This document shows positions 5,477 to 16,517 of a stretch of 21,334 bases of DNA, in pieces (the first letter of the stretch is position 1; every line of letters begins with the position of its first letter). The DNA is from a virus. The notes beneath the pieces were generated by a model that did no database searches, was not told where the DNA came from, and saw only the letters and a program-made list of their open reading frames with translations. Location: positions 1-21,334 of IMG/VR virus record IMGVR_UViG_3300027522_001051, one strand, 5' to 3'. A program made the translations under genes and the position numbers.

Positions 5477-6898
5477 TTAATCTATTTCGTCTGTTTCATC
5501 GCCTTTTTCTGACCAATCAGATAAGACAAATTTTCTACTTGGATTGACACTAACTTTAAATCTTTTCAACAAATCTCTATTAATAAGAAATGTACTTGCA
5601 GCATCTTCTAGCTGAAGTCCAATAGGAACATCTGTATAAATCATATTATTAAATTTTACATTTATATATACTATTGGCCGTTCAGTAATCTTACCAATAT
5701 GAGTAGGTTTTGAAATTCCCTGTAATTTGCTGGTGAATTTTTTACCCTTTCTCTCCCACTTAACAGTTTTACCAGACACTTCTACTTTATCAACAACTAA
5801 CATAGATGCCTTTGTACCATTGCCGGTATCAAATTTAGCTCTTATTGGTCCATATCCATCAATCTCTACAGTCTCATGATAACCCGATTCTTGATTAAAA
5901 TCAAACCTTCTGTGTACAGGATTTTGCAAATACTCAACCATTAATTTAACGATATCTTTTTCTTTTGTTGGTTCTTGTGGAACCGTAGTCATATCGTAGT
6001 TTTGAAACTCTGATCCCATACCAGGCGAACCATTACACTCTAAGACATAAATTTCATTATTTACAATTGCATGATCAACACCAACCATGTATGCACCCGT
6101 TGCTCTAGCAGCTGCAAGAACTTCTGCCTTCTCATCTTTACTCAAGGTATAAGGTTTTGTCTTTGCGCCCATATGACGATTGGAACGAAAATCTTTTTCT
6201 GGTTTAATTCTCTTAGTTGAGGCAACGATACGACCATTAAGAACGATAGTCCTAACGTCAAATTCTATTTTTAAAAATTCTTGAATGATAAGGGGCGCAT
6301 TGAATTTCCACAATGACTGAATAACACTCATCATGGATTCCATACTGTCAACCTTAGAAACACCGATACCTTGTGTTCCTGTCAAAGTTTTGATAATGAC
6401 AGGAAACTTACCACCGATACGTTCATGAGCATCAATAATACTTTTTTCATTGTTGACCAGTGATGTACGGGGAGTGTTGATATTGTTTCGTTCAAACGAT
6501 GTATAGGATGACATTTTATTATCACATGTCAACATACCATCACGATCATTGATCATCATGCAACCAGCATTTTGCAGTGTACCTAGTAATGCAAGACCAA
6601 TCTCATCTTGCAGAACACCAGCCCGCACAAACACCACAGTCGATGCAGTTTCAACTTCAATATCTTTTTCTTCACCATCATAATTTTTAATGGAAACTAT
6701 ACCCTTTTCGATATCGTTATCAGACACCCATGCCTCAGTTGTTACCACCCTATAGCATGGCAATCCTAAGTCTGAACAGGCCGCTAAGAGCATACCAGTA
6801 ACAACTTCTGGTTTTTTTGATTTAGAGTTTGTTAAAATAAGAACTGTTATCTTATCTCCAACAGCTTCCTCAGTTATAAAAGACTTGAAATTTTCCAC
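5477..6898 (-). CDS. rimK: RimK-type ATP-grasp ligase fused to a retropepsin-like (RimB/DUF785) domain, with a capsid-targeting N-terminus
   Basis: A 473-residue fusion. Residues about 17-325 form an ATP-grasp ligase like RimK, which adds glutamates to ribosomal protein S6: PVIIKTLTGTQGIGV (166-180) in the ATP-binding lobe, FDVRTIVLNGRIVAS (213-227), and the metal-binding end LECNGSPG (Glu287, Asn289). Residues about 340-460 match the ATP-dependent zinc protease/RimB family: DTGNGTKAS (357-365) carries the aspartate, and FLINRDLLKRFKV with NPSRKFVLS is the typical end. The first ten residues, MENFKSFITE, closely resemble the capsid-targeting propeptide of T4 internal proteins (MKTYQEFIAE), cleaved by the prohead protease after the Glu. 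The start is GTG, two bases past the regA stop (TAA-TA-GTG); no other start is available before residue 36 and an in-frame stop lies upstream. Substrate unknown. Confidence 0.9.
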   Translation of the reverse strand: MENFKSFITEEAVGDKITVLILTNSKSKKPEVVTGMLLAACSDLGLPCYRVVTTEAWVSDNDIEKGIVSIKNYDGEEKDIEVETASTVVFVRAGVLQDEIGLALLGTLQNAGCMMINDRDGMLTCDNKMSSYTSFERNNINTPRTSLVNNEKSIIDAHERIGGKFPVIIKTLTGTQGIGVSKVDSMESMMSVIQSLWKFNAPLIIQEFLKIEFDVRTIVLNGRIVASTKRIKPEKDFRSNRHMGAKTKPYTLSKDEKAEVLAAARATGAYMVGVDHAIVNNEIYVLECNGSPGMGSEFQNYDMTTVPQEPTKEKDIVKLMVEYLQNPVHRRFDFNQESGYHETVEIDGYGPIRAKFDTGNGTKASMLVVDKVEVSGKTVKWERKGKKFTSKLQGISKPTHIGKITERPIVYINVKFNNMIYTDVPIGLQLEDAASTFLINRDLLKRFKVSVNPSRKFVLSDWSEKGDETDEID

Positions 6899-12819: not shown

Positions 12820-12824
12820 TGGTT

Positions 12825-12911
12825 ATCTCCTTTATAAAGCAAGATTATATTGTGCATCCCATTACGGCGATGCGTTAAGTTGAAATGGTTTTTAATTGGA
12901 GAACCATTTCA
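12825..12911 (-). promoter_or_regulatory. ROSE-like RNA thermometer in the hsp20 leader
   Basis: The hsp20 leader has three hairpins in series. I (12881-12911) pairs TGAAATGGTT with AACCATTTCA, a perfect 10-bp stem. II (12854-12873) pairs GCATC-CC with GG-GATGC. III (12825-12845) pairs ATCT with AGAT and then, after an unpaired U, GCTT with AAGG around a UAUA loop, leaving a G-G pair. That gives the U-U-G-C-U sequence opposite AGGA that defines ROSE thermometers of small heat shock genes, with the hsp20 Shine-Dalgarno inside the helix. The ROSE rule is established; its use here is inferred. Confidence 0.75.
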
Positions 12912-12948
12912 TAAACTCCCTTCCAAGGACTTACGAATTGCCCTGTGT

Positions 12949-12954
12949 ATTATA
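12949..12954 (-). promoter_or_regulatory. Candidate -10 element for hsp20
   Basis: TATAAT sits about 38 bases upstream of the first leader hairpin. No clear TTGACA lies 16-18 bases before it, unlike the other promoters here, so this promoter may be of a different class or be a chance match. Confidence 0.35.
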
Positions 12955-12982
12955 TATAGTCATTTAGATAACACCATCTGAC

Positions 12983-14146
12983 TTAGTAGGTGAAACCATC
13001 TGGTTTTTCTTCACCCTCTAAAGTGTTGGGTTGATCATCAGTGGACATCACACCAGCATCAACCTTGGTATAAAGGTCAATAAAGGATTCTTTTGTATCA
13101 TCATCAAAACGTGCAACACACATTTCAATAGCGGTCATCTTGTCTTTGAAGATAGCATATGCTTTCACAATGTGATCCAGACGGCGAGTAGAAATAATCT
13201 CATCCACACCACCATCGTAAAAGGTCTTACGAATGACCTCAGCCCACATTACAAGGTTGTCAGCAAAGGCATCATCGACTTCACCATACTTCATCATAGA
13301 ACCAACAACGATTTTCTTTTCAATCGTAGCAGTAGGATATGGTTGTTCAATCGTGATTGCAAAGCGTTCAAGAAACGCCTCGTTCAGAATGTTGGTTCCG
13401 ATAAAGCGTCCATCTTCAGAACCTTTACCTTTAGTGTTGGCAGTAGCCATCACATTGAAACCATTTTTAGGAGTGATCCACTTGTTAATCTTTTTAAGGA
13501 ACACGCCCTGACCCTCAAGGACAGGCTGTAGAGCAAGTAACTTATTAGAACCTAGATCACACTCATCAAGCAACAACGTGCAACCACGTTCCATTGCTTC
13601 GATCACAGGGCCGGGCACAAACTTGGTTTCACCATTTACCAAACGGAAACCACCAAGCAAATCATCCTCATCAGTCTCAATTGTGATATTGAGTCGGATC
13701 AATTCTTTACCTAGTTCAGCGTGTAACTGTTCGACCATTAGAGTCTTACCGTTACCAGACAAACCAGTAATGAAAACAGGATAGAACATGCCGGACTTAA
13801 CAATCTTTTTAAGGTTAGCATAGTTGCCCCAAGGAACGAAACCTACAAACGGAGCAGGAACAAGATTCTGTTTCTCCAAATTAGAAGCAACTAAGTTCAT
13901 AACCGTATCTGGTTCATTAGTAACTGGCGCAGTAACGGCACTAACAACTAAATTTGTCATATCAAGGGAAGGTAATTTATGTTGATTGTAACCAACCTTA
14001 GTACGTGACATCCATGAAGGATAAGGAACGCCTACTTTTTCAGCAGCAATACGAATCTGGTCTTTACTGATTACCGATCCATCGCCGAACATTTCGGCCG
14101 CAGATTCAACAAACATCTTTTTACGTGGAGTCAATTTAATAGTCAT
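12983..14146 (-). CDS. cobS: CobS-like MoxR-type AAA+ ATPase
   Basis: A 387-residue AAA+ ATPase like the CobS subunit of aerobic cobaltochelatase and MoxR ATPases. Walker A is GLSGNGKT (128-135), Walker B LLLDECD (191-197), sensor 1 NVMATANTKGKG, and the arginine finger region NEAFLERFAI. The N-terminal ~110 residues hold a helical segment (TPRKKMFVESAAEMFG) typical of phage CobS. ATG 14146 is chosen: GAAAGAG precedes it, and the upstream in-frame codons include the promoter. Its partner, CobT, is the gene just upstream, the usual AAA+/VWA pairing. No CobN or cobalamin genes are present, so a chelatase role is uncertain; the pair may instead remodel or process another protein. Confidence 0.92.
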   Translation of the reverse strand: MTIKLTPRKKMFVESAAEMFGDGSVISKDQIRIAAEKVGVPYPSWMSRTKVGYNQHKLPSLDMTNLVVSAVTAPVTNEPDTVMNLVASNLEKQNLVPAPFVGFVPWGNYANLKKIVKSGMFYPVFITGLSGNGKTLMVEQLHAELGKELIRLNITIETDEDDLLGGFRLVNGETKFVPGPVIEAMERGCTLLLDECDLGSNKLLALQPVLEGQGVFLKKINKWITPKNGFNVMATANTKGKGSEDGRFIGTNILNEAFLERFAITIEQPYPTATIEKKIVVGSMMKYGEVDDAFADNLVMWAEVIRKTFYDGGVDEIISTRRLDHIVKAYAIFKDKMTAIEMCVARFDDDTKESFIDLYTKVDAGVMSTDDQPNTLEGEEKPDGFTY

Positions 14147-14183
14147 ATTTTTCTCTTTCACAGTTTTCATCATCATTATCTTT

Positions 14184-14212
14184 ATAGTACCATACAAAAC
14201 AAGCTTTGTCAA
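14184..14212 (-). promoter_or_regulatory. Promoter for cobS
   Basis: TTGACA (14207-14212), 17-base spacer, TACTAT (14184-14189), with the first of three consecutive ATGs seven bases after the -10. The likely cobS start is further on, at 14146. Confidence 0.65.
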
Positions 14213-14216
14213 TAAG

Positions 14217-14238
14217 AATCGACATCTAATTGTCGATT
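14217..14238 (-). promoter_or_regulatory. 22-bp perfect palindrome upstream of the cobS promoter
   Basis: AATCGACA-tctaat-TGTCGATT on the plus strand is a perfect 8-bp inverted repeat, ending four bases before the -35. With no T-tract it looks more like an operator than a terminator. Confidence 0.45.
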
Positions 14239-14253
14239 TATTGTTTTTTCTGT

Positions 14254-14276
14254 AAAGTGTGACATTTTTATCACTA
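14254..14276 (-). repeat. 3'-end hairpin repeat, copy 1 (after cobT)
   Basis: A 23-bp sequence (AAAGTGTGACATTTTT, then aTCACTA) overlapping the cobT stop codon, matching copy 2 at 16886-16908 in 22 of 23 positions. On the transcript it forms a small GTGA/TCAC hairpin. It may be a weak terminator or RNA 3'-end element. Confidence 0.55.
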
Positions 14277-16517
14277 TGCCACCATTGCAACAAATTTATT
14301 CAGAAGAACACGACTCTGGATGCGGCCCTTATTAGATTTAGCAAAGGCAGTCTTTAGTTTGCCCTTTGAAGCACCAACAAGATCATCTGATAAACCAGTA
14401 TTTTCGACATTCAAGGCATCACCACCGGGCAGGATAAAATACTGATCATATCCTACAGAGTCTAGAGCTACTACCTTATCTTTACGCATTTTTGACATTG
14501 CTGTTTCTAATGGCATATTATTTCCTGTTGACTCAGCTTTAGCAAGGATATAAGACCAAGTATTACGAGAAACAATACCCTTACGACCAGAACCAGCAAG
14601 GAAAAATCCAACCAAATTCATGTCTGGCACCCGTTTCTTGAGAGCAGAGAGCAATACTTGAGTGATGTTATTGCGACGAAAATCGTACTGTTTATTATTT
14701 ACAGGATCAATCAAAAGATTTTCTTTATCAAATGGAGAAACAATATCACTGGCAGTATAAGTTTGGCCGGCCTCTCTATAATCTTTAACACCATAAAGAT
14801 TATTACTAGCACCATCAGTCAGAAAAATTGTGTTAAGTTTCTGAACGCCTGTAGACTTTTTGTACTTAGGGAGAAAATCCATCATCATAATAATAGAATC
14901 ATTTAGCGGAGTTCCACCCAAGTAATAATTTCCAGGCGGGTTTTGAGGATAACCAGATACAGACCAATTCTCATATGTTTGAGACATGTATTTTGCAAGC
15001 ATCCAAATATAGTGCATTGATTTTTCTTCTTCAGCCGCAGACATTTTACTTGAAAAGAAGTTTAGCAACTTAACATCACGATCAATCATGATATCACCAT
15101 ATTCCATAACATCTAAACTGTCCATCTTGTTGGAAATCGAACGACCATTAAAAGCACTGGTGAAAGCAAATACTTCAAAAGGAATCTTAGTACGGCGACA
15201 GAACATAACCAACTGAAGTAGCTGTTCAACCGTTCCTTTCAGATTGTCTTGCATTGATCCAGACCAATCAAGCATAATAATCATACCGTGATTTGTAGCG
15301 CCAGGCAGAGTTGTTACTTTCTTGAACAGATCATCATTGAACTTGTAAGTGTGAAGCGCACCCATATCGAGACTACCAGTTTTGGCAGTTGAAGCACGAG
15401 CATACTGGTCAGCAGACTTCTTCATCTCAAATTCTTTGACCATGTAGGATACAGTCTTTTTAGATTCAGTCTTAAATTCTTTGATTTCATCCAAAGAAGT
15501 ATTAAACCACATATCAGATTCATAGTGATTTTCTAAATCTTCAATAATTGTTTTGTAATCTACGATATAATCTTCTGATTTCAATTTAGGAATACGAGCA
15601 TAAGTTTTCTCAAAAGCAGTATCATCAGCAAGAGTTTTCAATGCATCAGTTAAAGCAGTATCAGTTTTAGCTTCTGGAACAGCAGTTCCAGAACCAGAAC
15701 CATCACTACCAACTTCAGAACCTATACGTTCTTCAGAAATGGGGCCAGTAGGATCAGCAGAACCACTGCTGTTATTGCTGTTGCCATCAGTGTTACGAAT
15801 ATCTTGTCCATCATTTACTTCATCACTTTTATCAGAACCGGCTTCATTACCATCATTGGAATCATTTCCATTGTCATCGTTAGAATTACCATCGCCACTA
15901 GTATTATTTCCATTTTCACCTTCTTCACCAGAATCATTTCCATCAGTCTTTGCTTCTTTGTTTTCTTCTTCATTCATTTCTGCTTTCATGAAAGCATAAA
16001 GGTCTTCAGCAAGATCAAGAACTTCATCCTCAGTCTCAAGACTTTTTGCACGATTAACAAAGACATTTTCTTTCTCAGAAAACTTAACACCAGGCATCAT
16101 CTTAAAATATAGGTTGATACGATCAATTAAGTTTTGAGCATTTACATCCTCATCAGCAATCCCGAAAAAATCACGGGCAGCAAGAGCTTTATAACCTTTC
16201 TTAAAAAGATTAATAGAGCCAGGATATTTATTTTGTACAAACTTCTCAATACGAGCATCTTCAAGGATATTCACAAAAGAGTGATTCAATTTACGCTCCC
16301 TTGATTTATCAAGCATATCCATAGAAGTCCAGAGAGCGTGTCCAATCTCATGACAAACCATGAGCTCTTCTTCATCCTTGGAGATTTCATCTTTCCAAAT
16401 AGGAAGGCCTAACTCACGCTTCTTAATATTGAAGTAAGCAGTATCCATTGCCTTATTGACAACATGGATATCTTCTTCAGCGAGGAGTCGTGCAATCGTG
16501 TTTTTGTTTTTCATCAT
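14274..16517 (-). CDS. cobT: CobT-like protein: HExxH metallopeptidase-like domain plus VWA domain
   Basis: A 747-residue partner of the CobS-like ATPase. The N-terminal domain has CHEIGHALW (His56, Glu57, His60) and NILEDARIE (about 83-91), whose glutamates could be the third zinc ligand, as in gluzincin peptidases. A Ser/Asp/Asn/Gly-rich acidic linker covers about 183-285 (GNDSGEEG, NSNDDNGNDSNDGNEAG), as in CobT and other phage relatives. A VWA domain follows with the MIDAS motif DWSGS (417-421) in IIMLDWSGSM and a later LTDG. The promoter -10 lies six bases before the ATG and there is no Shine-Dalgarno, so the mRNA is probably leaderless. Either of two adjacent ATGs could be used. The peptidase motif is a striking addition to a chelatase-like protein; substrates are unknown. 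Confidence 0.92.
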   Translation of the reverse strand: MMKNKNTIARLLAEEDIHVVNKAMDTAYFNIKKRELGLPIWKDEISKDEEELMVCHEIGHALWTSMDMLDKSRERKLNHSFVNILEDARIEKFVQNKYPGSINLFKKGYKALAARDFFGIADEDVNAQNLIDRINLYFKMMPGVKFSEKENVFVNRAKSLETEDEVLDLAEDLYAFMKAEMNEEENKEAKTDGNDSGEEGENGNNTSGDGNSNDDNGNDSNDGNEAGSDKSDEVNDGQDIRNTDGNSNNSSGSADPTGPISEERIGSEVGSDGSGSGTAVPEAKTDTALTDALKTLADDTAFEKTYARIPKLKSEDYIVDYKTIIEDLENHYESDMWFNTSLDEIKEFKTESKKTVSYMVKEFEMKKSADQYARASTAKTGSLDMGALHTYKFNDDLFKKVTTLPGATNHGMIIMLDWSGSMQDNLKGTVEQLLQLVMFCRRTKIPFEVFAFTSAFNGRSISNKMDSLDVMEYGDIMIDRDVKLLNFFSSKMSAAEEEKSMHYIWMLAKYMSQTYENWSVSGYPQNPPGNYYLGGTPLNDSIIMMMDFLPKYKKSTGVQKLNTIFLTDGASNNLYGVKDYREAGQTYTASDIVSPFDKENLLIDPVNNKQYDFRRNNITQVLLSALKKRVPDMNLVGFFLAGSGRKGIVSRNTWSYILAKAESTGNNMPLETAMSKMRKDKVVALDSVGYDQYFILPGGDALNVENTGLSDDLVGASKGKLKTAFAKSNKGRIQSRVLLNKFVAMVA

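Follow-up and report, generated by a model that had tools for sequence, protein, structure and literature searches.

The hsp20 leader of a marine bacterial virus: a probable ROSE-type RNA thermometer with relatives before other phage chaperone genes

The leader of hsp20 on the minus strand of a marine bacterial-virus record, IMGVR_UViG_3300027522_001051, is very probably a phage-borne RNA thermometer of the ROSE type, which would let translation of the small heat shock protein follow temperature. The best reading of the data is that it belongs to a family of ROSE-type thermometers spread through phages and extended to dnaK and groESL. The stretch analysed, called here the window, comprises 21,334 nucleotides (positions 1 to 21,334 of the record). 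The ROSE-type reading had been put forward in the original prediction, and every feature of sequence and structure of the class that could be checked was found.

Of 127 positions aligned between the hsp20 product and IbpA of E. coli, 43% are identical, and the element lies in the 5' untranslated region of its gene, as expected for the ROSE class. In the clade of the window, an extra 5' hairpin and a putative pseudoknot are added to the leader (Table 1). Among the other ORFs of the window a RimK-like ATP-grasp protein and a CobS/CobT-like pair were noted (5477-6898, 12983-14293 and 14274-16517, minus strand), as in T4-like cyanophages, together with several 2OG-Fe(II) oxygenase-like ORFs.

Table 1. 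Features of the hsp20 leader region; positions are those of the window.
Feature	Position	Strand	Basis or remark
hsp20, class A small heat shock protein of 145 aa	12382..12819	-	ORF; PHROG 432 Hsp20, E=4.4e-41
Whole two-hairpin element (match of model R1)	12823..12875	-	53.7 bits, E=2.7e-13
Hairpin III, ROSE-type SD hairpin, AUCUUGCUUUAUAAAGGAGAU	12825..12845	-	UUGCU opposite AGGA, AUCU/AGAU flanks
Shine-Dalgarno, AAAGGAGA	12826..12833	-	sequence; predicted accessibility
Hairpin II, GCAUCGCCGUAAUGGGAUGC, GCAUC(G)CC..GG GAUGC, bulged G conserved as Y(G)C/G(G/A)	12854..12873	-	present in 57/61 diverse leaders
Putative H-type pseudoknot: S1 GGAG/CUCC, L1 UUUA, S2 UGAAAUGGUU/AACCAUUUCA, A-rich L3	12881..12919	-	36/37 related leaders above 95th percentile of shuffles
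5' hairpin (CAGGG..CCUUG), conserved loop CAAUUCGUAAGU	12923..12945	-	adjoins TATATATAAT promoter-like box
Promoter-like box CTATATATAATACAC, T4-late-like or sigma70 -10-like	12945..12959	-	sequence only

The Shine-Dalgarno sequence (SD) of hsp20 had been placed in a hairpin with UUGCU opposite AGGA and with flanking AUCU/AGAU pairs, and the fold of the isolated sequence agrees with this drawing (-2.7 kcal/mol at 37 °C, -8.2 kcal/mol at 5 °C). Read from 12845 to 12825, hairpin III is composed of AUCU, UGCU, UUAUA, AAGG and AGAU; the outer AUCU and AGAU are paired, one G is left unpaired between UUGCU and AGGA, and one C-G and two U-A pairs close the UAUA loop. When the leader of the window is folded together with the first 30 nt of its coding sequence (ViennaRNA, 37 °C), GCUUU takes another partner. 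The mark of the ROSE class is a U(U/C)GCU imperfectly paired to the SD in the 3'-proximal hairpin, with a bulged or non-canonically paired G. This anti-SD is UUGCU in the window and UCGCU in other clades, and a G opposite the SD is unpaired in all leaders. Two to four hairpins are usual for the class, and hairpins II and III were present in 57 of 61 diverse leaders. The four consecutive U residues pairing with the SD that define a fourU thermometer are not found in this leader, whose anti-SD is UUGCU.

A relative of hsp20 was detected by protein similarity in 508 phage records. Relatives gathered in this way alone, from 80 IMG/VR loci and cultured phages, gave 53 distinct leaders, and UYGCU-n-GGAG was found before the start codon in 52 of them, the chance rate being 1.5% when the SD was fixed and the upstream bases were shuffled; Vibrio phage PWH3a-P1 is the lone exception. 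The comparison with related phage leaders proposed at the outset came out in favour of the element. The UUGCU form occurs in the window and most relatives, the UCGCU form in Syn33, S-SSM4, P-SSM4, S-PM2, HTVC115P and others, and the element is retained where the Hsp20 proteins share just ~44% identity.

The placement of the element was also followed from the RNA side, by scanning IMG/VR for the SD-hairpin pattern ATYTYGCTTNNNAARGGAGA without reference to genes. More matches exist than are listed; of the 155 listed (all loci collected, some contigs counted twice), 154 precede a chaperone gene (142 hsp20, 11 dnaK, 1 groES), and the remaining one lies within a coding sequence. Two supposed dnaK entries (L182 1881 and L239 5095) were left out of the counts, since in both the real dnaK element begins ~100 nt further downstream. 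A 57-kb contig, IMGVR_UViG_3300032560_001015, assigned to viruses by IMG/VR and two informative PHROG hits, carries three elements, before hsp20, dnaK and groES-groEL, the last detected by R1 alone; side-by-side hsp20 and dnaK copies were found on four other contigs (G020, G037, G038 and G039). Phage genes on some of the multi-copy contigs encode a DexA-like exonuclease, endonuclease VII, a T4-type clamp loader, thymidylate synthase and a tail fibre, and some also encode ClpS or a ClpX-like protein. With copies at dnaK and groES in other phages, the element has a wider use than as the switch of a single small heat shock protein. A set of hsp20, dnaK, groES-groEL, clpS and a ClpX-like gene was noted on the phage contigs L182/L370/L371 (G018), L372 (G039) and L376 (G038), several of these genes having a ROSE-type leader.

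For the covariance model R1, 12 leaders other than that of the window served as the seed, and their structure was specified. Its match to the hsp20 leader is the only one in the 21-kb window. In the whole genomes of ten cultured phages the best hit was the hsp20 leader in seven, with E-values of 2.5e-8 (Melnitz), 3.7e-6 (C48C1), 5.4e-5 (Mosig), 8e-4 (P-SSM4), 1.6e-3 (Syn33), 3e-3 (HTVC008M) and 0.044 (S-SSM4); S-PM2 was at noise level. The genomes of PWH3a-P1 and HTVC115P gave no R1 match, and in the latter the UCGCU/AGGAG motif is visible by eye despite this.

Aligned to R1, 67 distinct sequences gave a covariation score of 0.437, compared with 0.133 after shuffling and at most 0.072 after sliding. 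Nearly all of this signal comes from hairpin II, in which 7 of the 9 pairs show changes on both sides. In an independent count over 61 leaders whose mutual similarity was below about 74%, three outer positions of hairpin II were 100% paired, with 4-6 pair types each, against 43-52% in shuffled sequences, and the bulged G was kept as Y(G)C/G(G/A) in 54. A MAFFT alignment of diverse leaders (A1) misaligned loops and was excluded from the counts in favour of the gap-free seed A2. An alternative drawing of hairpin II, with a bulged pyrimidine and a G-G pair, was dropped, U-A standing for U-G in some leaders. Hairpin III is nearly invariant, 99.8% of its cells being paired in the 67 sequences, and its sole pair with changes on both sides is x2-y2, where U-A gives way to A-U in C48C1 and to C-G in the types of Mosig, HTVC008M and L059. 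Since the SD is under constraint of its own, hairpin III is not provable by covariation alone. A lack of compensatory changes in related leaders had been named as grounds for giving up the thermometer; such changes are strong in hairpin II and present at one pair of hairpin III.

Across diverse leaders, the median predicted accessibility of the SD rose from 0.06 (5 °C) to 0.20 (37 °C). In controls with shuffled upstream sequence it stayed near 0.37-0.40, and for 13 other genes of the window the SD was near 0.42. The E. coli ibpA leader, treated in the same way, gave 0.04 and 0.15. For the SD of the window, between 5 and 37 °C, accessibility went from 0.06 to 0.50 for hairpins II and III with 30 nt of coding sequence, from 0.06 to 0.26 for the whole leader with the same 30 nt, from 0.19 to 0.16 for the two hairpins ending at the AUG, and from 0.52 to 0.25, the opposite trend, for the whole leader ending there. 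The value of 0.06 at 5 °C is thus reached in two of the four contexts, and the changes are modest and depend on flank length. Deletion of the bulged G in silico closed the SD at all temperatures (0.00-0.01) and breaking of the anti-SD opened it (0.60-0.77), which is how published Pseudomonas ROSE mutants behave (PMC3669281). As the folding result depends on flank length and is once reversed, the computed energies are consistent with a thermometer and are no proof of it.

Two further hairpins had been drawn upstream of the SD hairpin. The nearer one, hairpin II, is real by the data above. The outermost, ending at 12911, corresponds to the S2 stem of a putative pseudoknot whose S1 stem, GGAG/CUCC, had been overlooked, and an H-type pseudoknot is the better description of the segment 12919..12881, in the order GGAG, UUUA, UGAAAUGGUU, CUCC, AAUUAAA, AACCAUUUCA, with a U-rich first and an A-rich third loop. 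The S1 stem covaries (GGAG/CUCC, ACAG/CUGU, ACGG/CCGU, GAAG/CUUC, AGAG/CUCU, GGG/CCC), and in a few rows of the search (L025, L103, L034, L243) the wrong alternative was probably chosen. The pattern of the 5' hairpin, GGCAATTCRTAAGTCCTT, precedes hsp20 in 67 of 67 matches, some contigs being counted twice. In relatives, TATATATAA or TATAAATA stands at the place of the promoter-like box. A candidate pairing of the start codon (AAUGGUU) with an arm of the pseudoknot was strong only if the RNA ended at the AUG, was lost with 30 nt of coding sequence, and was rejected. This 5' module of hairpin and pseudoknot (12881-12945, minus strand) has no match in Rfam. It is absent from other clades, such as L017, L020, L047 and the cyanophages, and is therefore, judged from these leaders, unlikely to be required for the thermometer. 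Melnitz-like phages have a second late-type box (TATAAATA) between the module and hairpin II, so that the module may be a separate transcript there, and it could be a separate regulatory RNA.

The following course of events is proposed. The hsp20 mRNA would probably start from a phage-type promoter near 12945-12959 and would carry, in order, the accessory 5' hairpin and pseudoknot, the stable bulged-G hairpin II and the weak hairpin III. At the low end of the growth range, hairpin III would hide the SD by imperfect pairing of U(U/C)GCU with AGGA; warming would melt it and Hsp20 would be translated, a host heat-shock sigma factor being dispensable. The analysis shows the anatomy of the element, its conservation and covariation, and its specific placement at chaperone genes; the start of transcription, melting inside cells and the range of temperatures that matters physiologically are inferred. 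In this reading the element has also spread to dnaK and groES-groEL of phages, and some phages would thereby have an RNA-run heat-shock regulon. It is tempting to speculate further, and we regard this wider picture as tentative, that some marine and freshwater phages possess their own heat-shock regulon of hsp20, dnaK and groES-groEL run wholly by a shared, mobile ROSE-type leader, possibly also an operator bound by Hsp20, so that chaperone supply would track temperature and protein damage without host sigma32, the 5' pseudoknot being a further input in the clade of the window.

The leader could instead be chiefly an operator for autorepression, from which Hsp20 would be titrated by unfolded protein. 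According to PMC10474464, E. coli IbpA represses itself through its own 5' UTR, for which it needs Arg93, an aromatic residue at 34 and a positive charge at 97/98. At these key positions the phage Hsp20 carries R, F, R and K, Arg101 being the equivalent of Arg93; among 167 Hsp20 proteins with the element, R93 is found in 152 and an aromatic residue at 34 in all 167, and the only phage Hsp20 of the set lacking the element, that of Vibrio PWH3a-P1 (L251), has Ser at the position of the RNA-binding Arg. However, the element is kept in the 15 of 167 cases with Lys at 93, which inactivates E. coli IbpA, K98 is not conserved, and the element also stands before dnaK and groES. Both the proteins with Lys and the copies of the element at dnaK and groES argue against autorepression as a full explanation, and we consider it rather unlikely as the chief role. 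It is compatible with temperature sensing: dual control by temperature and Hsp20 is possible, and thermometer and operator could be the same RNA.

It is improbable that the hairpins merely set a fixed, low rate of translation or stabilise the 5' end of the mRNA, temperature being irrelevant. A stable 5' hairpin can protect mRNA, as was suggested for hairpin I of the Pseudomonas ROSE element (PMC3669281), and the predicted melting is modest. A fixed low rate, however, would need neither a U(U/C)GCU anti-SD with a bulged G specifically at chaperone genes (154 of 155 among the matches listed) nor the match to experimentally proven ROSE elements. Common descent of the hsp20 leaders alone, the hairpin merely accompanying the SD, would account for the almost invariant columns of hairpin III. 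It is a very remote explanation in view of the element's retention at ~44% protein identity, and it is contradicted by the presence of the element before the unrelated genes dnaK and groES and by the compensatory changes in 7 of 9 pairs of hairpin II. The reading as a ROSE-type thermometer is the one we prefer.

Matches to a similar pattern in the genomes of bacteria are mostly due to chance, yet 13 of 116 precede hsp20. By genome name nearly all of the 13 are from alphaproteobacteria, and most have the same GCC..GGG hairpin, so that phages and some bacteria have the element in common. On 115 alphaproteobacterial genomes R1 gave two matches at hsp20, one of them in the source genome; a third match was weak and preceded an unrelated gene. 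On E. coli ibpA/ibpB R1 gave only weak matches, none at the ibpA leader, and thus falls short of gammaproteobacterial ROSE. Alphaproteobacteria, many of them marine, with the two-hairpin element before their own hsp20 were noted as L254, L265, L267, L269, L277, L314, L315, L325, L335, L344, L350 and L379; these elements lie below or outside the Rfam ROSE families.

A search with the Rfam ROSE families, suggested with the original prediction, left the leader of the window unmatched even at E<=10 and matched relatives below the cut-off. Relatives scored some 25-36 bits with ROSE_3 (RF02523), namely 36.5 in L051, 34.1 in Melnitz, 32.2 on the L199 contig at its second element, that of hsp20, and 26.8 in C48C1 among others, none reaching the gathering score of 43, so that curated membership is not attained. 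Rfam as a whole gave nothing at its gathering cut-offs in the window or in ten bacterial loci, and matches in the window at E 1-10 (snoRNAs, freshwater-2) were judged to be chance.

The genes hsp20 and dnaK are known in aquatic jumbo phages, in a report that does not mention a thermometer (PMC12619734). In the open-licence literature of PubMed Central, subscription journals being outside the scope, no report was found of a ROSE element or thermometer in connection with a cyanophage or hsp20, and the papers found there do not report how phage hsp20 output is controlled. As far as we have found, no earlier ROSE-type element is known from phages, and the present one would also be the first that hsp20, dnaK and groESL share. 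The gene hsp20 is common in T4-like marine phages. A conserved thermometer would couple the yield of abundant marine viruses directly to sea temperature. The cultured phages Syn33, S-PM2, P-SSM4, HTVC008M and Melnitz carry the element, which is therefore testable immediately.

Three phage thermometers are counted in one publication, and one of them, given there through a reference, we take to be that of lambda cIII. With the SPbeta blyA fourU and a sigma70-gene thermometer it makes up the count, and all three likewise lie in a phage mRNA leader (PMC11182007). Unlike the present element, none of them is of the ROSE type and none controls a chaperone according to the publications consulted. The thermometer of cyanobacterial hsp17 (PMC4477652) also belongs to a small heat shock gene but is a single hairpin of another design. 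Small heat shock proteins of cyanophages are nearer to bacterial class A than to those of cyanobacteria (PMC3827213), with which the ROSE type of the cyanophage elements agrees.

The closest likenesses are with bacterial ROSE elements. In E. coli, ibpA is under sigma32 control. Like the phage element, its ROSE leader pairs UCGCU with AGGAG in the SD hairpin and has another hairpin (GCGCC..GGGUGU) upstream; it differs in being longer, with a further 5' hairpin. The bulged-G hairpin of this leader (L369), C(G)CC..GGG, resembles hairpin II of the phages, a hint that ROSE leaders have long had this hairpin in common. Rfam ROSE_3, like the phage element, has a bulged-G hairpin with GCC..GGG, then an ACUyGCU..AGGAG hairpin and then the AUG. 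The short two-hairpin ROSE of Pseudomonas ibpA shares with the phage element a stable hairpin I, a short second hairpin in which U(U/C)GCU faces the SD, an unpaired AUG and a class A small heat shock gene (PMC3669281). The Pseudomonas element is bacterial and served by sigma32 promoters, whereas the phage element is AU-richer, has a putative 5' pseudoknot module in the clade of the window and probably a phage-type promoter.
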